From contig NZ_BJVC01000002.1 of NCBI RefSeq assembly GCF_007988945.1, positions 558,001-622,000 of the forward strand: a stretch of 64,000 nt of DNA, in the 5' to 3' direction. Every line of letters begins with the position of its first letter. The stretch's first letter is position 1. The DNA is from Swaminathania salitolerans (GTDB lineage Bacteria; Pseudomonadota; Alphaproteobacteria; Acetobacterales; Acetobacteraceae). The notes beneath the pieces were generated by a model. It was not told where the DNA came from. It did no database searches and worked only from the letters and a program-made list of their open reading frames with translations. This document shows, piece by piece, positions 3,301 through 34,493 of this stretch. A program made the position numbers and the translations under genes.

Positions 3301-3779
3301 TGCAATCTCCGGAGCAGCGCCAGAGCCTGATCCTCCTGCCCCTCTGCAAGGCGCCGGAAAAGCGGGCCGCGCGTCCCGCCGGTGAGCAGGAAAAGCCCGT
3401 CGGCATGGGAGCAGAGCGTTTCGAGCGCGATGGTCGGGTCCGACGGATCGCCCTTGAGAAAGCCTTCGGAAGAGAGAAACTGCAGATTGGCGAGGCCGGT
3501 CTCGTTGCGGGCCAGGGCCACCAGAGGTTCGGCCGGAAGACCGGGCTTGTCGCCATGTGGCGGGAGGGAGAGCTGGCAGCCGATGATCGGCTGGACGCCC
3601 TTGCCCGAGCAATATTGCGAGAACTCGAGCGCACCGAACAGATTGCCCGTATCGGTCAAGGCGACCGCGGGCATGGCGCAATCGGCTGCGAGCGCCACGA
3701 GATCCGGAATACGGATCGCCCCCTGACTCAGCGAATAGGCAGAATGGTTGCGGAGATGGACGAAGGAGGCATGAGACAT
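360..3779 (-). CDS. dnaE: DNA polymerase III subunit alpha (replicative DnaE)
   Basis: Replicative polymerase catalytic subunit. The 1139-residue length fits DnaE1. The N-terminus begins MSHASFVHLRNHSAYSL, the PHP domain opening. The palm motif GPGRGSGAGS lies at about residues 357-366, and the catalytic PDFDIDF carrying the two aspartates lies at about 398-404. Helix-hairpin-helix and OB-fold regions follow near the C-terminus (segment RIAGCVVDRKERPTKSG). I chose the start at MSHASF because this is the conserved family beginning; an in-frame ATG 36 bp upstream, sitting close behind AAGAAAGGG, is the alternative. It is the last gene of the proS-lolC-lolD-dnaE series, 174 bp after lolD. Its antisense strand carries a very long open frame, which is a codon-bias shadow. 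Confidence 0.96.
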   Translation of the reverse strand: MSHASFVHLRNHSAYSLSQGAIRIPDLVALAADCAMPAVALTDTGNLFGALEFSQYCSGKGVQPIIGCQLSLPPHGDKPGLPAEPLVALARNETGLANLQFLSSEGFLKGDPSDPTIALETLCSHADGLFLLTGGTRGPLFRRLAEGQEDQALALLRRLQDGFGDYLAVELHRHGLAEERAVEPGMIAAADRLGIPLVATNECFFARPAMHEAHDALLCIAQGRTMAEQERWRVTPEHWFKSPDAMRALFADLPEACDNTLAIARHCAVKVSTRPPLLPVCPKVNEGATEEETLRSMSKEGLVRRLDRMDADADTRKRYEERLEMELGIIVRMGFPGYFLIVADFIQWAKEHDIPVGPGRGSGAGSLVAWALTITDIDPLPFNLLFERFLNPERVSMPDFDIDFCQDRRDEVIRYVRTEYGGERVAQIITFGKLQARAAVRDVGRVLGLPFGMVNRVAELIPNNPAKPVTLKQAIDGEPRLQEMRDNDEALRRLMEIALQLEGLFRHASTHAAGVVIGDRDLVELVPLYRDPKSDMLVTQYNMKFVEQAGLVKFDFLGLTTLTILKRGINFIAQQGVEVDLAALPLDDAATYEMLARGDAGGVFQFEGAGMRDVLKQMRPTRLEDLIAAVALYRPGPMANIPDYCARKHGASWEPPHEEIRDILSETYGIMVYQEQVMQIAQKMAGYSLGGADLLRRAMGKKIRAEMDTQREIFVKGATGRGITPEKAAEVFDLMARFADYGFNKSHAAAYALVSYQTAWMKANYPVAFLAGCMSLAREKTDKLASLCQEARRMKIAVLPVDINRSEADFTLERQADGSWAIRYALAAVKRVGFSAMQAIVDARGDRPFTSLADLAARCDARQLNKIQIENLAKAGAFDSLDIPRHVVFASADIIMRRAQSEAQEAASGQIGLFGASAEPEELRLAEAEYWPEFERLAAEAEAIGFHMSAHPLDAYRAVLKRANVLTSQNLMTAAENGSYRVRIAGCVVDRKERPTKSGSKMAWVRLSDSTGGCEVTLFSEVLSRCRDLLVAGQAVMVTADLKLEGDALRITASDVTDLEKAAAQESGEMRIWISEASAVTRVRDLISSQGKGRGKIVLVPAVDETKAIEVTLSGYFPVTPRLGEQLRTIRGVSRIDHI

Positions 3780-3953
3780 GCAGACAGATGTATCAGAGCC
3801 GCTCCTGCCCGACATCCCTTTCTTCTCGATACCGCACGAGACAACCGTGTCGAAAGGAAAGCGGAGCCATCATCGGAACCGCGCTCGGGCCGAGTCCGGT
3901 CGGGCATCGGCTCCTGCCCCCGGCTGCGCGCGGATCGGGAAGCAGGCTCCGGA

Positions 3954-4637
3954 TCAACGCGCGACGATACGCCCCTCGCTCAGCGTGACCACCCGATCCA
4001 TCCGCGCGGCGAGAGCCTCGTTATGCGTGGCGATCAGAGCGCCCACCCCCTCGCCCCGCACGGCCAGAAGCAGCTCCTCGAAAACCGCGTCGGAGGTGTG
4101 GATATCGAGATTGCCGGTCGGCTCGTCGGCCAGCAGGAGCCTGGGCCGATTGGCCAGAGCCCGGGCGATCGCAACGCGCTGCTTCTCTCCTCCGGACAGC
4201 TTGCCCGGCAGATTGCCCAGACGATGCCCGAGACCGAAACGGTGCAGCAGGCCCGTCGCGCGCGCCCTGGCATCCGCTTGTGAGACGCCCGCGACATATT
4301 GAGGCAACAGCACGTTTTCCAGCGCCGTGAATTCGGCGAGGAGGTGATGGAACTGATAGACGAAACCGATTTCGTCCCGCCTCAGCGCCGTTCGGGCTGT
4401 GTCGGAAAGCGTTCCCGTGTCGTTTCCGGCCACGCGCACCTGCCCCTTCTGGGGAGATTCGAGCAGCCCGGCGATATGCAGGAGGGTCGATTTCCCGGTC
4501 CCGCTCGGCGCCACGAGCGCCACGATCTCGCCGGGATGAAGGTCGAGAGAGGCGCCGCGCAGGATCTCGAGCGTTTCCTCGCCGGAGCGATAGGCGCGGG
4601 TCACGTCGACCAGGGACAGAACCGGTGTTTCACTCAT
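3954..4637 (-). CDS. lolD: Lipoprotein-releasing ABC transporter ATPase LolD
   Basis: ATPase of the inner-membrane LolCDE complex that extracts outer-membrane lipoproteins and passes them to LolA. The 227 residues have Walker [10 protein letters not shown] (43-51), the signature LSGGEKQR (147-154) and Walker B LLLADEP (167-173), followed by the TGNLD D-loop typical of the LolD/MacB class. The start overlaps the end of lolC by 8 bp, so the two are translationally coupled, as expected for subunits made in fixed ratio. The family is sure from size and partner; separation from MacB-type ATPases rests on the neighbouring lolC. Confidence 0.94.
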
Positions 4638-5877
4638 GACGCAGCGCCTCGATCGGATCGGTCCTGGCCGCTCTCCAGGACGGGTAAAGTGTCGCGACGA
4701 AAGACAGAGCGAGCGCCATGACCATCACCTCGATGACCTGCGACCAGACGAGACGGGCCGGCAGATGCTCGAGATAGTAGAATTCCGGATTGAACAGGCT
4801 GGTATGGGTCAGATGCTCGACCCCATGCTGGATGCGCTCGATATTGAGGCAGAACACCACGCCGATGACGAAGCCGATCACCGTGCCGGAGACACCGACC
4901 GATGCGCCGCACATGAGGAATATCCTCATGATCGCGCCCCGGCTCGCACCGAGGGTACGCAGCACGGCAATGTCGCGCGTCTTGTCCTTGACCATCATGA
5001 TCATGGACGAGATCACGTTGAACGCGGCCACCAGGATGATCAGGGTGAGGATCAGGAACATGACGTTCTGCTGCACCGTCAGAGCCCCCAGAAACGCGTT
5101 ATTGCTCTGCGTCCAGTCCATCACGCGCAATCTCGGATCGTCGAGGCGCTCGGCGATGGCGCGGGTGACATCGCGCACCTGAAGGGGATCCCGTGTCGCG
5201 ACCTGGATCAGAGAGACCGCATCCGGCATCATGAGAAAACGCTGGGCGGCTCCGAGCGGCATCAGGATCACGCTCGTATCGTAATCGTTCACGCCTGCAT
5301 CGAACACCAGTGCGACGTGATAGGCCCGGATCCGGGGCATCGTTCCGAATGGGGTCGCGCGGCCATTGGGCGAAAGCAGCGTGACCTTGCTGCCGATCCC
5401 GAGCCCTGCGCGCGCTGCCAGCGTGGCACCGACGGCAATCGCATCGTCACCCCGGAAATCCTCGAGACGACCATCGGTAATGTTGTCGCTCAGGGCGTGC
5501 AGATCGCGCAGATCGCCCGGCAGGATGCCGCGCACCACGCCGCCGGTGGAATAGTTTCCGGCATCGATCAGAACCGTGCCTTCGGCCATGGGCGTCACGC
5601 GGGTGACATTCTTCACCCCGCGAATGGCGACGACATCATCCTGATAATTCGGAATGCTGTGGCCAGCACTGAAGATATTGAGATCGCCGTTCAGACCGAG
5701 CACGCGCCCCATCAGATCGGCCCTGAACCCGTTCATCACGGCCATGACGATGATCAGCGTCGCGACGCCGAGCGCGATACCGATCAGGGAAAATATCGCG
5801 ATGATGGAAACGAAACGTTCCCCGCGACGGGCGCGCAGATAGCGCCCCGCCACCGCGCGCTCGAAGCGGTTGAACAT
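4630..5877 (-). CDS. lolC: Lipoprotein-releasing system permease (LolC/LolE family)
   Basis: Membrane subunit of the lipoprotein-release transporter, 415 residues. An N-terminal membrane helix (about residues 22-49, rich in I, L, V, A) is followed by a large periplasmic MacB-like domain and then three C-terminal helices, with the conserved cytoplasmic stretch [15 protein letters not shown] between helices two and three. I set the start at [19 protein letters not shown], the family's usual opening; a longer open frame upstream overlaps proS and is spurious. Only one LolC/E-type gene is seen, as is common in alphaproteobacteria, where a single permease can form a homodimer. It lies 2 bp downstream of proS. 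Confidence 0.94.
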
Positions 5878-5879
5878 GA

Positions 5880-7220
5880 TCAGGCGGCGTCCTTGCCGGC
5901 GCCATCGGTGCCGAGCACCTTTGCAAGCGCGTCCTCTGCCGTAAGCTCGAACCGCTCGCCCGTGGCCCGGCGCTTGAGTTCGACCTTGCCTTCCTTCGCG
6001 CCGCGCGGACCGACGATCATCTGCCAGGGATGCCCCATCAGATCCGCATCGTTGAACTTCACACCGGCACGCTCGCTGCGATCGTCGTACAGGAATGCGT
6101 CCGGAGCAGCCCCGTAAAGCCGCTCGCACAGCGCATCCACGGCTTCGTCGCCGGGCTTGAGGCTCAGAATGGCGGCGCGATAGGGCGCAACCGAATCCGG
6201 CCAGATGATCCCGGCCTCGTCATGGCTTGCCTCGATCACGGCCCCGACCAGACGCGATACGCCAATGCCGTAGGAACCCATTTCGGGGAAGAACTGGGCG
6301 CCATCGGGCCCGCTCACCGAGATCCCCATGGATTCGGTATATTTGGTGCCGAAATAGAAGATATGACCCACCTCGATTCCGCGGCCTTCGCGGCGACGAT
6401 CGGCAGGCACGTCTTCCCACGACGTCTCGTCATGCATCTCATCGGTCGCGGCATAGAACCGGGTGACGCCGTTGAAGAACACCTCCAGGCTGGCATGATC
6501 GGCGATATCGACATTCTCATGCAGCCAGTCCTGCTCCTCGAGCGCCGCATCGAAAAAGACGCCGCTCTCGCCCGTGGGCGCCAGAACGAGAAATTCGTGG
6601 CTCAGATCGCCACCGATCGGCCCGGTATCGGCCTTCATCGGCACAGCGCGCACACCCAGACGCTGGAAGGTACGCAGATAGGCGAGCATCATCCGGCGAT
6701 AGGTGGCAACCGCATCCTCGTAGGACGCATCGAAGGAATACGCGTCCTTCATGAAGAACTCGCGACCGCGCATCACACCGAAACGCGGGCGCAGCTCGTC
6801 GCGGAACTTCCACTGGACGTGATACAGTGCCTGGGGCAACTCACGGTAGGACTTGATCACCTGACCGAAAAGATCGGTGATCATCTCCTCATTCGTCGGC
6901 CCGTAGAGCAGCTCGCGATCCTGTCGGTCGCGGATACGCAGCATCTCCGGACCATAGGCGTCGTAGCGCCCCGAACGCTTCCACAGCTCCGAGGACTGGA
7001 CAGTCGGCATCAGCACTTCCTGCGCGCCGATGGCATTCTGCTCTTCCCGCACGATCTGCTCGATATTGCGCAGCACACGCAGGCCCACAGGCAGCCAGGC
7101 ATAGATACCGGCCGAGGTCTGACGCACGAGGCCGGCGCGCAGCATCAGGCGATGCGACGCGATCTGGGCCTCGGCAGGCACTTCTTTGAGGGTGGGCAGG
7201 AAACCGCGGGACAGACGCAT
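5880..7220 (-). CDS. proS: Prolyl-tRNA synthetase (short alphaproteobacterial type)
   Basis: Charges tRNA-Pro with proline. The 446 residues begin [19 protein letters not shown] and contain class II motifs: [14 protein letters not shown] (motif 1 region), [18 protein letters not shown] (motif 2 with the ATP-binding Arg-Glu) and a motif 3 region around [13 protein letters not shown]. The central editing (INS) domain of the long bacterial ProS is absent, matching the compact form of alphaproteobacteria. A C-terminal anticodon-binding domain follows ([15 protein letters not shown]). It sits between rnj and lolC in a conserved order. The 70-bp gap to rnj holds two short perfect inverted repeats. 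Confidence 0.96.
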
Positions 7221-7281
7221 CGTGGGTGACCGTTCTAGAGAGAGACATCACGCGCCTGGCTCGGCGCGTCATCAGGCAGAA

Positions 7282-7303
7282 GCTGCGGGATCAGACCCGC
7301 AGC
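7282..7303 (-). promoter_or_regulatory. Perfect 8-bp inverted repeat with the rnj stop codon in its loop
   Basis: GCTGCGGG and CCCGCAGC pair perfectly around a 6-base loop that contains the TGA of rnj. A second 7-bp perfect inverted repeat (ACGCGCC/GGCGCGT) follows at 7251-7270, just before proS. Neither has a T tract, so they are not classic terminators. They could be processing or mRNA-stability elements between rnj and proS. This is inference from base pairing only. Confidence 0.4.
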
Positions 7304-8937
7304 AGATGGACATCGACCAGGGGGCGCTTCTGCAGCTTGCGCCCGAGGGCGCGGCGCAGGGCCGTCTTGGCGGCATCGCGGAAAGCATCGTCATCCTGAC
7401 GCAGATCGTCGGGAATCTCGTCGATGGCATCGGCGAATTCCTCCGAAATGCGGGTGCTCTCGGGGTCTTCCGCTTCCAGCAGGCCGGGGGCGCTGATCTT
7501 GGGCATGCCGATCACATAGCCCTCGTCATCGACCGCGAAACTCGCGATGACCATGCCGTTGAACAGCATCTTGCGCCGGGCGGCCAGAACGCCGCCGGTC
7601 ATGGGGAGCAGGCGTCCGCCATCCAGAGCCAGACGTCCGGTGGGCGCCGTATCGACCACCTCGGCCCGATCCGGCCCCAGACGGAGCAGATCGCCATCCT
7701 CGAGCAGGATCGCCTCGGCCCCGGTTTCCCGCGCGAGCGCCGCATGGGCCGTCAGATGGCGCCATTCGCCATGGGTCGGCACGCTCAGCCTGGGGCGAAC
7801 GAGGCTGTAGAGATGACGCAGATCGTCCGACGTCGCATGGCCCGACACATGAACCAGATGGTCCTTGTCGGTCAGCACGGTGGCGCCACGACGGGTCAGA
7901 TTGTCCTGAACCGCCATTACCGCCTGCTCGTTTCCGGGGATCATGCGGGAGGAATAGATGACCGTATCCCCCTCGCCCAGAGTGATGTTCGGATGAATAT
8001 CGGCAGCGATGCGCGAGAGTGCGGAACGCGGCTCGCCCTGGCTGCCCGTGATGATCATCAGCAGCCGATCGTCGGGGACAGAGCTCGCCTCGCGCTCATC
8101 GAGGAAAGGCGGGATATCCTGCAGATAGCCGCATTCGCGCGCCGCAATCTCGAGATTGCGCAGCGAACGACCGACGACCATGACCTGACGGCCTGCGGCC
8201 TTCGCTGCCCGCGCGATCGACTCCACGCGTGCGACATTGCTGGCGAAACAGGTGATCGCGACACGTCCCTTGAGCGTGCGGATGAGCCCGGCCATGGAAT
8301 CGCGCACCTGTCCCTCGGTGCCGGAAATGCCCTCACGAAAGACGTTCGTGCTGTCGCATACCATGGCGAGGACGCCCTCGTCCCCGACCGCCTTGAACGC
8401 GTCGAGATCGGTCAGCGGGCCGACGACCGGGTCGCGGTCGAGCTTCAGATCGCCTGTATGGACGATCGTACCGTAGGCGGTACGAATGACCAGGGACTGG
8501 GCTTCGGGCACGGAGTGGGTCACGTTGATGAAGGCGAGATCGAACGGACCGACCTCGAAACGTCCGCCCATGGGAACCGTGTGGATGGTCACCTGCGAGA
8601 GCAGATGCGCCTCGCCGAGCTTGCGACGCAGGACGGAGGCCGCAAACGGCGTCGCATAGATCGGGCAGCGCAGCTGGGGCCAGAGATGGGCGACCGCGCC
8701 CAGATGATCCTCATGGGCATGGGTGATCACAAGGCCGCAAAGCGCCTTGTTGCGTTCCGCGATGAAGAGCGGATCGGGCATGAGGATCTCGGCCTCGGGG
8801 GTATCGTTCCCCGAGAAGCCGATCCCGCAATCGACGGCAAGCCATTTCCCGTCGAGGCAATAGAGGTTGAAATTCATACCGATCTCGCCGGTTCCGCCCA
8901 GAGGCAGGAATGCGAGACCTTTTTCGGTCACTGTCAT
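7291..8937 (-). CDS. rnj: Ribonuclease J (metallo-beta-lactamase/beta-CASP nuclease)
   Basis: Exo/endoribonuclease for 5' mRNA decay and rRNA maturation, 548 residues. The metallo-beta-lactamase motif HAHEDH lies at 73-78, preceded by the family opening LPLGGTGEIGMN (11-22). Later motifs include a beta-CASP region with HVSGHAT and a C-terminal domain ending LQKRPLVDVHLLRV. Alphaproteobacteria commonly carry one RNase J in this place between coaX and proS. The ATG is preceded by a weak purine stretch. The large rightward open frame on the other strand is a shadow. Confidence 0.96.
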   Translation of the reverse strand: MTVTEKGLAFLPLGGTGEIGMNFNLYCLDGKWLAVDCGIGFSGNDTPEAEILMPDPLFIAERNKALCGLVITHAHEDHLGAVAHLWPQLRCPIYATPFAASVLRRKLGEAHLLSQVTIHTVPMGGRFEVGPFDLAFINVTHSVPEAQSLVIRTAYGTIVHTGDLKLDRDPVVGPLTDLDAFKAVGDEGVLAMVCDSTNVFREGISGTEGQVRDSMAGLIRTLKGRVAITCFASNVARVESIARAAKAAGRQVMVVGRSLRNLEIAARECGYLQDIPPFLDEREASSVPDDRLLMIITGSQGEPRSALSRIAADIHPNITLGEGDTVIYSSRMIPGNEQAVMAVQDNLTRRGATVLTDKDHLVHVSGHATSDDLRHLYSLVRPRLSVPTHGEWRHLTAHAALARETGAEAILLEDGDLLRLGPDRAEVVDTAPTGRLALDGGRLLPMTGGVLAARRKMLFNGMVIASFAVDDEGYVIGMPKISAPGLLEAEDPESTRISEEFADAIDEIPDDLRQDDDAFRDAAKTALRRALGRKLQKRPLVDVHLLRV

Positions 8938-8968
8938 GAAAAAATCCCAGTCGAGAAAAAATGCACCT

Positions 8969-9760
8969 TCATCCTGGTGCCGGAATAAGTTCGCCCGGGT
9001 CGTTGCGTGCAGCGAGCAACCGCAGACCGTCGAGCGTGAGCGTTGGAGCGACGTGCTGGAACAGATCCGTTCCTTCGGAAAAAAGCGGGGCCAGACCGCC
9101 CGTGGCGATCACCTTGATCGGGGTCGCCATCTCAAGCGCGATGCGCGAGACGATTCCCTCGACCAGACCGACATACCCCCAGAAAAGACCGGACCGCATG
9201 GCAACGGAGGTGTTGCGACCGATTGCCGAAGACGGGCGCCCAACGCTGATGCGCGGCAGGCGCGCCGCCGCCTGATGCAGGGCCTCAAGCGAGAGATTGA
9301 CCCCCGGAGCGATCGCCCCGCCGCAAAATGCACCCTCTTCATCGACGACATCGAAGGTCGTCGCCGTACCGAAATCGACCACGACGAGCGGACCGCCGAA
9401 AAAATGCTGTGCGGCAAGACCGTTGAGACGCCGGTCCACGCCCACTTCGGAAGGTGTATCAACCTTGAGGGGATATCCCCATTCGAGGGCCGTGTTCGCG
9501 ATCAGCGGTTCGACATCGAGCCACTCGCGGCACAGGCGACGGAGATGATAGAGCGCGGCGGGCACGACGGTGCCGATAATGGCCCGGGTGACGCAGCGGG
9601 GCGAAAGACCGGAACGATCGATGAGGGCCAGAAGCCAGGCTGCGTATTCGTCCGAAGTGCGCTGATCGTTGGTCGAGATACGCCAGGCGCCGCGCCATTC
9701 GCGCCCGTCATGGACAGCAAAGACGATATTCGTATTACCGGCATCGACGACGAGGAGCAC
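8969..9760 (-). CDS. coaX: Type III pantothenate kinase
   Basis: First step of coenzyme A synthesis, phosphorylating pantothenate. The 263 residues carry the ASKHA-fold motifs DAGNTN (6-11), GVDR (107-110, with the catalytic Asp) and DFGTATTFD (129-137), with a C-terminal ATGGLAPLF. CoaX enzymes are insensitive to CoA feedback and need a monovalent cation. It is 10 bp downstream of birA and 31 bp upstream of rnj, the usual arrangement. Confidence 0.96.
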
Positions 9761-9770
9761 AGACCTTCCT

Positions 9771-10499
9771 TTATCCTAGCAGTAGAATATCCCCCGAGAG
9801 GAATGCCTGAAGGTCGCCCTGGTCGGTCTGGAGAAGTAGCCGACCGCTTGCGTCGAGACCCGCAAAGAAACCCTCTATATAGTTATCCCCCCTTTGCACC
9901 GCAAGTCGTGTCCCGAGCGGGTGGGCGCGCTCGAGCCAGGCCGCGCGCAAGGGCTCGAATCCCTCGCGCTCCCAGAGCGACAGGCGGGCTGAGAAAGCGG
10001 CAAGAATGCGCTCGGCCGCCTCACGAGGGGCGATCGATCTGCCGAGCGCCTCCAGGCAGATGGTCCGGCGCCCCGGAATTTCCGGAGCGGTGCGCAGATT
10101 CGCGCCGATACCGACAACGATCCAGCCCGATCGCCCTGCCCCGCCCCGCTCGATGAGAACGCCGCAGAGCTTCGCACCCTCGCAAACCAGATCGTTGGGC
10201 CATTTGAGCTGAAGAACGGCGTCGGGCACGACGGGGGCGAGGGCATCGTGGATCGCAACCGCAACGAGAAAGGGCAGGACCGCGATCAGGGAATCGCTGT
10301 CACGGTCGCGACAGATGAAGGAGAAGGAAAGATTGCCTTCGGGCGCCTGCCAGAGCCGGCCGCGCGTTCCGCGACCGGATGTCTGACGATAGGCCAGAAC
10401 GGCCGTTCCGTCGGCTGCCCCCTTCTCGGCTTCGGATTTACAGAGATCCGATGTCGAGCCCAGGGTTTCGTGGCATGTCAGCGACCAGATGAAAGCCAT
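9771..10499 (-). CDS. birA: Biotin-[acetyl-CoA-carboxylase] ligase (monofunctional BirA)
   Basis: Attaches biotin to the carboxyl carrier protein. About 242 residues with the biotinyl-AMP motif [10 protein letters not shown] and the KWPNDL motif, then a short C-terminal SH3-like domain. There is no N-terminal winged-helix, so it is a ligase without biotin repressor function. I favour the start [17 protein letters not shown] because this precedes the fold directly; an upstream ATG at 10541, close behind GAGG, would add 14 residues. In many alphaproteobacteria the nuo operon lies immediately upstream; here a tRNA-Val gene does. Confidence 0.92.
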
Positions 10500-10587
10500 A
10501 CGGGTTGCGATCTTGGAGATTGCCGCCGGACCGGCCGGCATGCCTCGTGTCGCTTGCCGTTGCGACGGACAGGAGGCTTCGGGGGAA

Positions 10588-10662
10588 TGGTGGGCGATGA
10601 CGGGATTGAACCGCCGACCCTCTCGGTGTAAACGAGACGCTCTACCGCTGAGCTAATCGCCC
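10588..10662 (-). tRNA. tRNA-Val (anticodon UAC)
   Basis: Full cloverleaf with acceptor GGGCGAT/ATCGCCC, D arm TAGCTCAGCGGTAGAGC, anticodon stem TCTCG/CGAGA around loop TTTACAC giving UAC, and T arm GGTTCAATCC. The 3' CCA is encoded. It lies between hup and birA, both on the same strand. Confidence 0.96.
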
Positions 10663-10707
10663 GCAGGACCGGGGTAGAAACCCCGCTGCGTTGCGGCAGT
10701 GAATACG

Positions 10708-10992
10708 TTAACTCACTGCGTCCTTCAAGCCCTTGCCGGGGCGGAAACGTACAGAAACCGATGCGGGGATGTCGATTTCCTCGCCGGTGCGCGGATTGCG
10801 TCCCTTGGCCGCCTTGCGCGTGGCCGTGACGAAGGTGCCGAAACCGACAAGGCGTACTTCCTGCTTGCGGGCCAGCGCCTCTTCGATGCTCGAGAAAAGC
10901 GCCTCCACGACATCTCCGGCTTTCGCCTTGGGAAGGTCAGCCTTTTCGGCCACCGCTGCGATGAGCTCCTGCTTGTTCAGGGGCTTTTCCAT
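10708..10992 (-). CDS. hup: HU family nucleoid DNA-binding protein
   Basis: Histone-like DNA-bending protein of 94 residues. The N-terminus MEKPLNKQELIAAVAEKAD and the beta-arm RKAAKGRNPRTGEEI with the intercalating proline region NPRTG are diagnostic. I chose the ATG at 10992 because GAGG sits 8 bases before it; a TTG two codons upstream is also open. Transcription is probably its own: a sigma70-like promoter and two terminators separate it from lon. Confidence 0.95.
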   Translation of the reverse strand: MEKPLNKQELIAAVAEKADLPKAKAGDVVEALFSSIEEALARKQEVRLVGFGTFVTATRKAAKGRNPRTGEEIDIPASVSVRFRPGKGLKDAVS

Positions 10993-30125: not shown

Positions 30126-31499
30126 TCAGCCCAGAGGACCGAAGGTCAGACGCATGACCAGATCGAGCAGGGCGCCCACGACGAACCCGACAAGCGTCCC
30201 GTTGATGCGGATATATTGCAGGTCGCGACCGACGCGCTGTTCCAGACGCGCGGAGAGTTCGTTGGGGTCCCAGCGCTCCATGACCGAGGCGATATAGGCC
30301 GCGAGCTTGTCGCGCAGAGACGGCAGAAGACGCAGCAAGGTCGTCCGGAGCGTCTGTTCCAGACGCGCGCGCATCGCGGGGTCGTGGTCGAGCTGATCGG
30401 CGAGACTGCCCAGCGCCGTCTCGATGACGCTGCGGCTCCAGCCCTCCTCACAGGCGAGATCGCTTTCCGCCAGCCCGCGAAAACGCTGCCATATCTCCGA
30501 CCACCATACCCGCAGACTGTCATGCCCGAGATAGCCCGAAACGGCATCGCCGAACCGGCTGCGCCGATCGGGATCCTGTTCGAGGCGATCGATCTCCTGC
30601 CTGATCCAGGTGGTGAATCCTTCGCGCAATTCGGAATCCTGGGGATCGACACGGTCCAGCTCCAGATAGAGCGCCGTGATGACGCGGCTCGCGACCGAAG
30701 GGCCGATGGCCCAGCCGAGAACCCGCCCCCCCTGCTCGCGCACCCGGTCCTCGATGAAGGCGCGCAATACCGGCTCGCGCTTCTGTACTCCCTGCTTGAA
30801 ACGCTCGAGCAGGGCCGACAGGACCTCCTGATGCGCCTCGTTATCGACCAGGGCCCGCAAGGCCCGCGTAACGACCTTCACGGTTGCCTCGCCACGGACC
30901 AGAACCGGAATCGCCCGGCCGATGGCGGCCGAGGCCCGGCCATCCTCGAAACGATCGAGCATGGCCGGAATACTGCGCTGAAGGGCCGAGGCGGTCGCGG
31001 CGACCGTTCTCGGCTGACGCAGCAGATCGGCCAGATGCCGGGGAATACCGGCCGCGGCCAGCGCGCGTGTCGCATCCTCTTCCGTAAAGAACTGACTCGA
31101 GACGAAACGCCCAAGCGCACGGGCCAGCCGGGGCTGCTGACGGGGCAGGACAGCCGTGTGCGGAATGGGCAGACCGAGCGGATGACGGAAAAGCGCGGTC
31201 ACGGCGAACCAGTCGGCAATGCCTCCGACCACGCCCGCCCGCGCGCCAGAGCGGAGAATCTCGAGCAGGAAGCGATCCTGCACGAGCCCGGACGCCGGAA
31301 GCCCGGCCGACACCACGAGCAGCCCGCCCATGCCGAGGAGCAATCCGCCGGCGAAGCGACGGGCGGAACGCAGGCCCGCGCGCATCTGCGCCTCGGCGGT
31401 CGGATCCTCTCCCGCCCTGCCTGCGCCTGCCATGCCTGTGCCCGCCATACCTGCGCGCCGTGCTGAACCTCTGGATGTGTCGGTAGAAGCATTGTGCAT
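30126..31499 (-). CDS. DUF445 domain-containing membrane protein
   Basis: 457 residues with a hydrophobic N-terminal anchor (about 50-70, LLLGMGGLLVVSAG), the DUF445 core (GGIADWFAVTALFRHPLGLP) and a C-terminal hydrophobic end (TLVGFVVGALLDLVMRL). Homologues are inner-membrane proteins of unknown function. The N-terminus before the anchor is Gly/Ala/Met-rich (MAGTGMAGAGRAG). I chose the ATG at 31499; a TTG two codons earlier is also open. It diverges from the PEPC-like gene with about 120 bp between. Confidence 0.9.
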   Translation of the reverse strand: MHNASTDTSRGSARRAGMAGTGMAGAGRAGEDPTAEAQMRAGLRSARRFAGGLLLGMGGLLVVSAGLPASGLVQDRFLLEILRSGARAGVVGGIADWFAVTALFRHPLGLPIPHTAVLPRQQPRLARALGRFVSSQFFTEEDATRALAAAGIPRHLADLLRQPRTVAATASALQRSIPAMLDRFEDGRASAAIGRAIPVLVRGEATVKVVTRALRALVDNEAHQEVLSALLERFKQGVQKREPVLRAFIEDRVREQGGRVLGWAIGPSVASRVITALYLELDRVDPQDSELREGFTTWIRQEIDRLEQDPDRRSRFGDAVSGYLGHDSLRVWWSEIWQRFRGLAESDLACEEGWSRSVIETALGSLADQLDHDPAMRARLEQTLRTTLLRLLPSLRDKLAAYIASVMERWDPNELSARLEQRVGRDLQYIRINGTLVGFVVGALLDLVMRLTFGPLG

Positions 31500-31619
31500 G
31501 GACAAGCGACTAGCATCTGCGACAAAAAAAGTCCCGGGCTCCTCTATCTTCCATTGCCTTCGTCTTTTTTGCGTGGAACACCGGGCGCAGTCCGTGAACC
31601 GATCTCAAGCGAGAGTGCC

Positions 31620-34493
31620 TTGTCCAATACCGCGCCGCATCACGTCTCTTCCGGAACGCAATCCCAGAGCCATCCCGAACTTCGGACCGCCGATGGTGCC
31701 GGAACGACCGTGAAAACCGGGGCGGGCGAAACCGTCTCGCGTCTGACGCATGAAATGCAGGCACTTCTGGATCGCGCCGCACAGGAACGTCACGCAGCCG
31801 ATCCCATAGAGGCGCTGTCGAGCCAGATCGAGGATGAGCTGATCGACGGCAGCCTCTCGATCGGGCGCCTCGAAGATGTGGTCCGGGTCCTGCGCGACGC
31901 CAATCTGCACGATCGTGCGGCACGTCTGCGAAACTATGTCGGGCTGGGCCATGACATGACCCCCGAGGCGCGGCTGGAAGAGACGGCCCGGAGAATCGTC
32001 GAGAGCTGCGACACGCCGGAGGCGCTCGCGGAGCGACTGGGGCGCCCCGGCTTTGCGGCTGTCTTCACGGCCCATCCGACATTCGCCCTGGACGATACGG
32101 TCTATCGTCACATCGTGGAAATGGCGACCGATCCGTCCCATCCCCTTCCCGCGCTCGAGACCCATCGTCGCGCCGCCCCCCCGACCCTTGCGGACGAGCA
32201 GGCGCTCGCCCTCACGGCCATTCTGCGCGGACGCGACGCGCTCGACCTGTTCAATGCGGCCGTCCTGCGTCATGCGTGCCAACGCTGGCCCGATACGGCC
32301 CCGGTCGTGCGTTCGCTCATCCTCGCGACATGGGTCGGCTTCGATACGGACGGACGCAGCGACATCCACTGGTGGGACACGCTGCGCATCCGCCTCGCGC
32401 TCAAGCGCACGCAGCTCGAGCGTCTTCGCACGCAGCTCGAATCGCTCCTCCCGTGCTGCTCCCGCCTCGTCTCGCGAATCGATGTCGCGCTCGGCGCCGT
32501 TCGCGAGCAGGAGCGCGCCTGTCCGACCGGGGCCCGTCACGATGCTGCGTCGATCGCGGCTTTCGCGGGGGCGCTGGTCAGTCGCCGCGAGGCCGCGCTC
32601 GTCTCCGGCGCGACGCTCGATCCCCTGTTCGACGAAGCTCTGGCGGAGATCGACGCCGAGGGACGGATCCCGCTCCTTACCGCCCGATCCGGCTTTCTCG
32701 CTCACGGCCTCGGTGCCGCGCATATCCACACGCGCCTGAACGCAACCCAGATCTATAACGTGGTCCGTCATCGCCTGGACATCCAGGACGACCCGACGAT
32801 CCCCTCCAGGCGTCGCCTCGTGCTCGCGCAGATCAACGAGGCGCTCGATGCGCTCAAGGCGCCCCTGCCCGTCGATTTCGGCGCGCTCATGGTGGAGCAG
32901 TCCTCCGCCGGTCGCCTGATGATGACGATGGCGCAGATCCTCAAGCATATCGATGCCGACACGCCTATCCGCTTCCTGATCGCCGAAACGGAGAGCGGAT
33001 ATACGCTGCTGGCCACGCTCTGGCTTGCGAGAATGCTCGGCATCCGCGACGAGCAGATCCAGATTTCTCCCCTTTTCGAGACACAGAGCGCACTCGAGCG
33101 CGGAGAGGTCATCCTCGAGGAGGCCTTCCGTTCGCCGCACTGGCGCGACTATCTCCGACGCAACGGCCGGCTCTGCCTGCAATTCGGCTATTCCGACTCG
33201 GGCCGCTATATCGGGCAGCTCGCTGCCACCAATCTCGTCGAGCGTCTGCGCCTGCGCACCCTGCAGCTCATGCAGAAGCACGATCTCCAGGATCTGGAAC
33301 TCGTGCTGTTCGACACGCATGGCGAGAGCATCGGCCGCGGCGCGCATCCGTTCAGCCTCTCGGACCGGCTGAGCTATTTCTCGCCGGACCATACGCGCGG
33401 CCTTTTCGCCCGGGCCGGCATCCATCTGCGTGAGGAAGCCGCCTTCCAGGGGGGAGACGGCTATACATTGTTCGGAACGGCCCCTCTCGCCACGGCGACC
33501 ATCGCCAGCCTGGCCGATCATCTGGTGCGTCCGCTCTCGACGACCCGCGACCCCATCTATGACGAGCCGGATTTCTCCGCCGATTTCTTTTCCACCATCG
33601 CCCTCGACATGAGCAGTCTGGTGGAAGACCCGGGCTATGCCGGTCTTCTCGGCGCGTTCGGCCCTGCCCTTATCGACAAATCCGGGTCGCGCCCCTCAGC
33701 CCGGCAGGGAGACGGGATCAGCGTCACGCGCATCACCCATCCCAGCCAGCTCAGGGCCATTCCGAACAATGCCATTCTCGAGCAGCTCGGCTGGTGGACG
33801 AACGTCCTGCAGGGTGTCGGCACGGCCGCGGCTCGTCATCCGGAGACGTTCGAGAAGCTGGCGCGAAGCAGCCGCCGGTTCGGCCTCGCTCTGGATTTTG
33901 CCCGTCAGGCAGCCGCGCATTCCGATATCGGTGCCCTGCGCGGCATCGTCCGCCTGCTCGATCCGGGCACATGGCTCGATCGCGCGGCGGCAGCACGGAA
34001 CGAGGAATTGCGGACGCAGCATCTCAAACTCGCCCAGGGCCTGGAGGGACTGGAATTCTGGCGGAGTCTCCCTGCGATGTTCCGTCGTATCCAAGCCGAT
34101 CATATCGCGCTGGAGTCGAGCTGGAGCCATACGCTCAAGATGAGCGCGCAGGAGCGGACCCTCCATGCGATCCGCCATGCGCTGATCGGGCAGATATGGC
34201 TTCTGGCGACGCGGATCCCCTATTTCAGCCCCCGGAACGACATCAATCGCGAGACCCTGATGCGCCTCGTCCTGCAACTCGAGATTCCGGCAGTTCTGCG
34301 CCGCCTTGCGGAGATCTTCCCGCAATCGGCGGGGATCGTGACCGATCTCGATTTCCACGAACCGAGCGGGCCGCGTGACGATCAGGGTTTCACGCGCGAG
34401 CATGAAGAGATCTTCAAGCCGATGGCCCGCCTGTTCGCACTCCTGCGCGAGATCAGCGTAGCCATCATGCATGCGAACGGCTCGTTCGGCTGA
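31620..34493 (+). CDS. Divergent phosphoenolpyruvate carboxylase-family protein
   Basis: 957 residues aligning with PEPC along its length, but many active-site residues differ. Retained: the catalytic-loop His in TAHPT (about 150-154), the metal ligand Glu in PLFET, the Asp in GYSDS, the Arg of GRG (SIGRG), and GSRP...R with LRAIP. Changed: HPTE is HPTF, the DRDGNP motif is DTDGRS, the Lys of YSDSxKD is Arg (YSDSGRY), the FHGRGG stretch is FDTHGE (loss of His and Arg), QGE is QGG, and the C-terminal RNTG is GSFG. The start is set at a TTG after GCGAGAG; an ATG 126 bp upstream overlaps the divergent gene. It may be a divergent enzyme or a paralogue with another function; anaplerotic PEPC activity is not assured. 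Confidence 0.8.
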   Translation: MSNTAPHHVSSGTQSQSHPELRTADGAGTTVKTGAGETVSRLTHEMQALLDRAAQERHAADPIEALSSQIEDELIDGSLSIGRLEDVVRVLRDANLHDRAARLRNYVGLGHDMTPEARLEETARRIVESCDTPEALAERLGRPGFAAVFTAHPTFALDDTVYRHIVEMATDPSHPLPALETHRRAAPPTLADEQALALTAILRGRDALDLFNAAVLRHACQRWPDTAPVVRSLILATWVGFDTDGRSDIHWWDTLRIRLALKRTQLERLRTQLESLLPCCSRLVSRIDVALGAVREQERACPTGARHDAASIAAFAGALVSRREAALVSGATLDPLFDEALAEIDAEGRIPLLTARSGFLAHGLGAAHIHTRLNATQIYNVVRHRLDIQDDPTIPSRRRLVLAQINEALDALKAPLPVDFGALMVEQSSAGRLMMTMAQILKHIDADTPIRFLIAETESGYTLLATLWLARMLGIRDEQIQISPLFETQSALERGEVILEEAFRSPHWRDYLRRNGRLCLQFGYSDSGRYIGQLAATNLVERLRLRTLQLMQKHDLQDLELVLFDTHGESIGRGAHPFSLSDRLSYFSPDHTRGLFARAGIHLREEAAFQGGDGYTLFGTAPLATATIASLADHLVRPLSTTRDPIYDEPDFSADFFSTIALDMSSLVEDPGYAGLLGAFGPALIDKSGSRPSARQGDGISVTRITHPSQLRAIPNNAILEQLGWWTNVLQGVGTAAARHPETFEKLARSSRRFGLALDFARQAAAHSDIGALRGIVRLLDPGTWLDRAAAARNEELRTQHLKLAQGLEGLEFWRSLPAMFRRIQADHIALESSWSHTLKMSAQERTLHAIRHALIGQIWLLATRIPYFSPRNDINRETLMRLVLQLEIPAVLRRLAEIFPQSAGIVTDLDFHEPSGPRDDQGFTREHEEIFKPMARLFALLREISVAIMHANGSFG

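Follow-up and report, generated by a model that had tools for sequence, protein, structure and literature searches.

The 64,000-nucleotide stretch of Swaminathania salitolerans DNA analysed here (contig NZ_BJVC01000002.1, positions 558,001 to 622,000; hereafter the window, in whose numbering positions are given) carries on its forward strand a gene for an unusual member of the phosphoenolpyruvate carboxylase (PEPC) family. The open reading frame extends from a GTG at 31494 to 34493, and the putative start is a TTG at 31620, which gives 957 codons plus a stop codon (31620..34493) and an aligned core from about 31731. This TTG is a plausible start because the stretch immediately 5' of it, AGCGAGAGTGCC, recurs together with the TTG in three Asaia species. 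The nearest named homologues of the protein are those of Asaia species (85–86% protein identity, in a search that may have hidden records very close to the window), among which purifying selection acts on the gene (dN/dS of 0.04–0.09 in six species pairs). A preliminary description of this DNA had seen a PEPC-family protein that keeps its metal site and has lost several catalytic residues, and had named a structural model, a tree of homologues and a genome search for a canonical ppc as checks; we carried out all three. We conclude that the gene most likely encodes a working PEPC with a second active-site design.

The window protein is homologous to PEPC over its full length. PF00311 is the sole Pfam family that it matches (56.4 bits over residues 438–577; gathering cut-off, 22.4), and a profile-profile alignment to canonical PEPC (E. 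coli Ppc; PF00311, NF000584) covers almost its whole length (E 6e-24) at 18% identity. Its score against the NCBIfam PEPC equivalog NF000584 is 64.7 bits, under the cut-off of 815. An AlphaFold2 model built with 48 rows (mean pLDDT 92.6, pTM 0.92) predicts a full-length PEPC fold, the best matches being maize 6mgi (Z 31.4 over 740 residues) and E. coli 1jqn (Z 27.4 over 738), followed by the archaeal-type PEPC 3odm (Z 18.1 over 469) and pyruvate kinases (Z of about 15).

We designate as the THGE type the clade that has F[DN]THGE where canonical PEPC has FHGRGG. A profile of 73 THGE rows (69 distinct, with four exact repeats; one further pair is 98.6% alike) was aligned to 28 canonical PEPCs including that of E. 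coli, whose numbering is used; residue roles are those assigned in the structures of the E. coli and maize enzymes. Kept in all 73 THGE rows are His138 (in TAHPT, 32073..32075; the HPTE of canonical PEPC is HPTF here), Trp248, Arg396 (32733..32735), Leu504, the metal ligands Glu506 (in PLFET, 33078..33080) and Asp543 (in GYSDS, 33195..33197), Arg587 (in GRG, 33336..33338), the Arg of GSR that corresponds to Arg699 (GSR at 33684..33692) and the Arg of RAIP that corresponds to Arg713 (33753..33755). Replaced in all 73 are Lys546 by Arg (33204..33206), Gly580 by Thr, Arg581 by His and Asn256 by Arg. Positions 579–583, HGRGG in canonical PEPC, read DTHGE in the window protein (33312..33326): the His579 position is Asp in 53 rows, Asn in 19 and Ser in one, and the Gly583 position is Glu in 71 and Asp in two. 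Met538, which we take to be part of a hydrophobic pocket, is Gln in the window protein (33180..33182) and in 72 of the 73 rows, the remaining one having Glu; Arg725 is Gly in 68. WVGFDTDGR (32331..32357), the counterpart of WMGGDRDGN, keeps Trp248 and has the Arg256 substitution, and Arg253 is also replaced in the window protein. QGE is replaced by QGGDGY (33447..33464) in a gapped stretch of the alignment.

PEPC is a textbook CO2-fixing enzyme, and Lys546, His579 and Arg581 are usually counted among its catalytic residues. All three are kept in each of the 28 canonical rows, and none is kept in any of the 73 THGE rows. The THGE rows have motifs of their own: W[VI]GxDxDGR, PLxET, G[YF]SD[SA]GR, F[DNS]THG[ED] followed by GRG, GSR and RAI occur in 73 of 73, QGxDG in 72 and TAHP in 67. 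Since Lys546 to Arg, Gly580 to Thr and Arg581 to His are found in every row, these replacements are not chance, and judged from the aligned residues the changes represent a fixed second design rather than decay or scattered losses. The residues that the preliminary description had listed as kept (His138, Glu506, Asp543 and Arg587) are all present in the alignment, which also bears out the changes at Lys546, His579 and Arg581, in HPTE and, in the gapped stretch, in QGE; the C-terminal GSFG noted there in place of RNTG exists in the protein and lies outside the alignment to RNTG. Its further claim, that the groups holding the phosphate of phosphoenolpyruvate (PEP) and bicarbonate are lost, stood in part. 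Lys546, His579 and Arg581 are indeed replaced, but the PEP-holding arginines are not lost as a group, because Arg396, Arg699 and Arg713 are invariant; of Arg396, Arg581 and Arg713, presumably the phosphate-holding arginines, only Arg581 is changed.

The replacement of several canonical active-site residues could also indicate a non-catalytic role, with the protein acting as a regulatory subunit or as a pseudoenzyme that still binds metal or metabolites. A precedent is the plant bacterial-type PEPC, a homologue that is part of class-2 complexes and for which a regulatory role appears in the title of a reference cited there (PMC8100219). That homologue, however, pairs with a plant-type PEPC, whereas the S. 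salitolerans genome has no other PEPC-family protein to partner or regulate. The alternative site is conserved across 69 distinct members, and His138, Glu506, Asp543 and Arg587 are all kept; we thus regard this explanation as very improbable.

In a quickly built tree of 48 rows (31 of the 73 THGE, 14 of the 28 canonical and three of six odd rows), the THGE rows formed one group with a support of 100 and a stem length of 3.27, and the canonical rows formed a separate group with a support of 99; the program warned of long branches for the three odd rows and of uneven composition. The THGE proteins therefore appear, on this tree, as a single deeply branching clade. It is scarcely credible that the window protein is a canonical PEPC of the ordinary kind changed by drift alone. 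Among the plasmid records with a match coverage of at least 80%, two of four annotate the gene as phosphoenolpyruvate carboxylase, but the other two leave it hypothetical or unannotated. The THGE rows form a clade with its own motifs rather than being scattered among the canonical ones, the equivalog score falls far below its cut-off, and in a survey of 289 genomes PF00311 scores were 710–1099 bits for canonical PEPCs versus less than 90 for THGE proteins.

Two other PEPC types were compared. Serine-cycle Ppc1 of Methylosinus trichosporium is a second alphaproteobacterial PEPC type that lacks some feedback-inhibitor residues; unlike in the THGE type, its catalytic residues are conserved (PMC3615186). 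Rows presumed to be of the serine-cycle type, which keep FHGRGG, fell in the canonical group of the tree apart from the 31 THGE rows; this label draws on lower scores and one Methylobacterium host, no named serine-cycle Ppc having been included as a reference. We therefore rejected the identification of the THGE protein with the serine-cycle PEPC of methylotrophs, despite the malate thiokinase-like neighbours in Phyllobacterium described below. Archaeal-type PEPC (PepcA, PF14010) has a related fold, as the match to 3odm indicates, but is about 520 residues long versus 957, and was not reached by the THGE profile in a sequence search. PF14010 matches neither the window protein nor the S. salitolerans genome, nor any of the 36 Acetobacteraceae genomes described below, while 6 of 14 control genomes match, two of them over the cut-off.

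We consider it probable that the THGE protein is a functional PEPC with an anaplerotic role, in which the bicarbonate/phosphate loop has been rebuilt and the aspartate-inhibitor site is apparently missing. Such an enzyme would make oxaloacetate from PEP and bicarbonate and thereby refill the citric acid cycle. PEP would be bound via Mg2+ or Mn2+ together with Arg396, Arg699 and Arg713; Arg546, His581 and perhaps Arg256 would provide the charge that Lys546 and Arg581 supply in canonical PEPC, keeping bicarbonate and the phosphate under transfer in place, after which the enolate and CO2 would join as in the classic PEPC mechanism. Lys773, Arg832 and Asn881 are presumably the aspartate/malate feedback site of PEPC. 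In the weakly aligned C-terminal part, the Lys773 position varies among the THGE rows (His in the window protein), and Arg832 and Asn881 have no aligned counterpart. Inhibition by aspartate or malate would presumably be absent, as none of the three residues appears to have a counterpart in the alignment.

The rebuilt bicarbonate loop and the Gln at the Met538 position also make a live rival of a PEPC-fold enzyme that uses the same metal-enolate chemistry on another substrate or co-substrate, for example a PEP analogue with a polar C3 group, or CO2 or another acceptor in place of bicarbonate. In its favour, positions 546, 579, 581, 583 and 538 are replaced in a fixed way with the metal ligands kept. 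We hold this rival to be rather unlikely, given the genomic distribution and the gene context set out below. Its broader form, a distinct enzyme with another substrate or carboxyl donor that replaces classic anaplerosis by PEPC and pyruvate carboxylase in about one-sixth of the Alphaproteobacteria surveyed, is unlikely; if it were true, acetic acid bacteria would refill the citric acid cycle by a new reaction.

The distribution of the gene was examined in 36 Acetobacteraceae genomes (that of S. salitolerans and 35 relatives), in 289 alphaproteobacterial genomes drawn evenly over the class and in 397 drawn over the phylum. The S. salitolerans genome has a single PF00311 gene and no canonical ppc, and profile searches of it found no match to PF14010, PF02436 (pyruvate carboxylase), PF01293 (ATP-dependent phosphoenolpyruvate carboxykinase, ATP-PEPCK) or PF00463 (isocitrate lyase); malic enzyme and GTP-PEPCK were not searched. 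By these profiles, malic enzyme not being among them, the THGE gene is the only C3-to-C4 carboxylase of its genome. The THGE type is carried by 28 of the 36 Acetobacteraceae, and no canonical PEPC was detected in any of them in a PF00311 search whose control found the family in 7 of 14 known genomes, including E. coli. Among nine genomes searched by name, seven have only the THGE type (Komagataeibacter xylinus, Acetobacter pasteurianus, Gluconacetobacter diazotrophicus, Gluconobacter frateurii, Asaia siamensis, Acetobacter indonesiensis and a Stella), so that the Gluconobacter, Komagataeibacter and Acetobacter genomes of this set contain no second PEPC-family gene. This agrees with the suggestion in the preliminary description that such genes are annotated as ppc in these bacteria without proof. 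A canonical gene accompanies it in the remaining two, Paraburkholderia fungorum and a Burkholderia. In A. pasteurianus LMG 1262 (L109), the THGE match is in an uninterrupted frame of 943 residues.

PF00311 matches were found in 87 of the 289 Alphaproteobacteria: 32 genomes with canonical PEPC (at least 710 bits) and 50 with the THGE type, one being counted in both, and six in neither group (G298, G134, G045, G301, G164 and G177). Strong THGE matches occurred in 31 of the 397 genomes drawn over the phylum, all of them Alphaproteobacteria; outside this class, the type was found in Burkholderia, Paraburkholderia and a few contigs titled as other groups. In the 50 genomes, either PEP carboxylation would be performed by an active site of a second design, apparently in an enzyme that lacks the usual feedback site, or these bacteria would use a reaction of a new kind.

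Co-occurrence was evaluated in the 289 genomes with one-sided Fisher tests that take genomes as independent, which shared ancestry contradicts. THGE and canonical PEPC occurred together in one genome versus 5.5 expected (p 0.013); six families hold both types, and in five of these no single genome has both. Full-score pyruvate carboxylase (PF02436 at 184 bits or more) was present in 51 of the 67 genomes with a PF02436 match, the 16 with lower matches, including two THGE genomes, G247 and G316, that score 78 bits, being set aside. It occurred with THGE in one genome versus 8.8 expected (p 3e-4); with all 67 counted, the figures are 3 versus 11.6 (p 5e-4). This rarity in one genome with either enzyme argues against a changed substrate. 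Among the 36 Acetobacteraceae, the 12 without ATP-PEPCK all have THGE, and the eight without THGE all have ATP-PEPCK (p 0.024). PEPCK may therefore carboxylate in these eight. We ruled out the idea that pyruvate carboxylase substitutes for THGE in genomes that lack it, since PF02436 is found in none of the eight. These genomes (G004, G013, G014, G017, G018, G027, G032 and G034) match neither PF00311 nor PF02436, and ATP-PEPCK in G004 is present as fragments. In A. pasteurianus 386B, malic enzyme is named as the other anaplerotic enzyme (PMC6915089). Taken together, purifying selection, the status of THGE as the only C3-to-C4 carboxylase by the profiles searched, its rarity beside canonical PEPC or pyruvate carboxylase and the Sphingobium enolase run described below indicate that the changed substrate or regulatory role favoured in the preliminary description is not the best reading.

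Several observations weigh against a working anaplerotic PEPC. The Gln found at the Met538 position in 72 of 73 rows, in what we take to be a hydrophobic pocket, is odd beside a methylene group. The changed residues include His579, which is cited, with His138 and Arg587, as important for catalysis in E. coli PEPC (PMC11832675). Burkholderia, Paraburkholderia and a Sphingobium plasmid carry THGE plus a canonical ppc. The yardstick for such exclusion, canonical PEPC, does not itself clearly avoid full-score pyruvate carboxylase (3 genomes versus 5.6 expected, p 0.14; 3 versus 7.4, p 0.03, with any PF02436 match), and the p-values given above ignore shared ancestry. Three of the 12 PEPCK-less Acetobacteraceae genomes are only 82–86% complete, and the absence of PF02436 from all eight THGE-less genomes of this family also counts here. 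The ppc of G. oxydans (GOX0102) is described as weakly expressed and as possibly of little importance to the wild type (PMC6191907), and that of A. pasteurianus 386B carries a frameshift according to the 2017 NCBI annotation (PMC6915089). PEPC activity reported for extracts of Gluconacetobacter xylinus CGMCC 2955 (PMC4047042) counts in favour of a working PEPC, but it was measured by means of an NADH-linked kit and on a different strain, and the assay does not point to the THGE gene.

The K. xylinus genome searched here, in which THGE is the only PEPC-family gene, is from a strain other than CGMCC 2955, and the main text of the CGMCC 2955 genome paper does not mention PEPC. The only Gluconobacter genome searched holds the THGE type alone. 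A PEPC purified from Acetobacter aceti was reportedly described in 1979. Metabolic models of Acetobacter list a plain PEPC (PMC6915089, PMC9729256). In searches of the open literature, which excludes subscription papers, some of them directed at such a clade, we found neither data on a purified THGE-type protein nor an earlier description of the clade.

The window gene is flanked on one side by suf-type genes and a DUF445-like gene and on the other by a ribose-type ATP-binding cassette (ABC) transporter, all named by sight. Its position apart from any pathway operon argues against a changed substrate, and its neighbours are these suf-type and ribose-type transporter genes rather than mtkAB, mcl, sga or hprA. 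Suf-type neighbourhood clusters (suf operon, Rrf2-type regulator and DUF445-like gene, by sight) recur in 42–49 of 96 loci and therefore look like an inherited position; for this reason, we rejected gene context as a functional clue in acetic acid bacteria. The G012 locus also has genes of the suf-type neighbourhood, and no serine-cycle cluster was seen there by sight, its genes not having been searched against family models.

In Burkholderia, Paraburkholderia and Sphingobium, the THGE gene belongs to runs that look catabolic, and the genomes or record checked hold a canonical PEPC at another place; this setting favours a changed substrate. On the plasmid of Sphingobium sp. TomTYG74 (L064, AP027342.1), however, one run at 3382–10757 comprises genes for a 2-hydroxyacid dehydrogenase, an APH-family kinase, an enolase (TIGR01060, 523 bits; cut-off, 300) and an FAA-hydrolase-family protein, followed by the THGE PEPC; the canonical ppc is elsewhere on the same plasmid. 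Because enolase makes PEP, this run, although a single case, is the best direct pointer to PEP itself as the substrate and speaks against a changed one. It might be a glycerate/PEP assimilation module. An aromatic-ring dioxygenase gene is located near the run.

On a Phyllobacterium zundukense plasmid (L065, NZ_CP104969.1; 1987–10742), oxlT, an acyl-CoA ligase gene and SucCD-like genes precede the THGE PEPC, and the run possibly serves the assimilation of oxalate or glyoxylate. The SucCD-like genes score 502 bits against the malate--CoA ligase model PRK14046 (cut-off, 604), and among the loci whose neighbours were inspected such malate thiokinase-like genes lie beside THGE only in Phyllobacterium. 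In Burkholderia pyrrocinia (L062), an RraA-family gene and a D-glycerate dehydrogenase gene flank the THGE gene. At this locus, and at L114, L115 and L132, whose open reading frame layouts are alike by sight, 5-oxoprolinase and biotin carboxylase genes precede it and an amino acid ABC transporter follows; the genomes of L114 and L132 also have canonical PEPC.

Very distant PF00311 matches, neither clearly canonical nor THGE, were found in G298 (L192), G134 (L193), G301 (L239), G045 (L242) and G164 (L240), and the three odd rows placed in the tree had very long branches. A contig titled Neisseriaceae bacterium ESL0693 (L092) carries a gene 54% identical to the window gene, reflecting either gene transfer or a mislabelled assembly.

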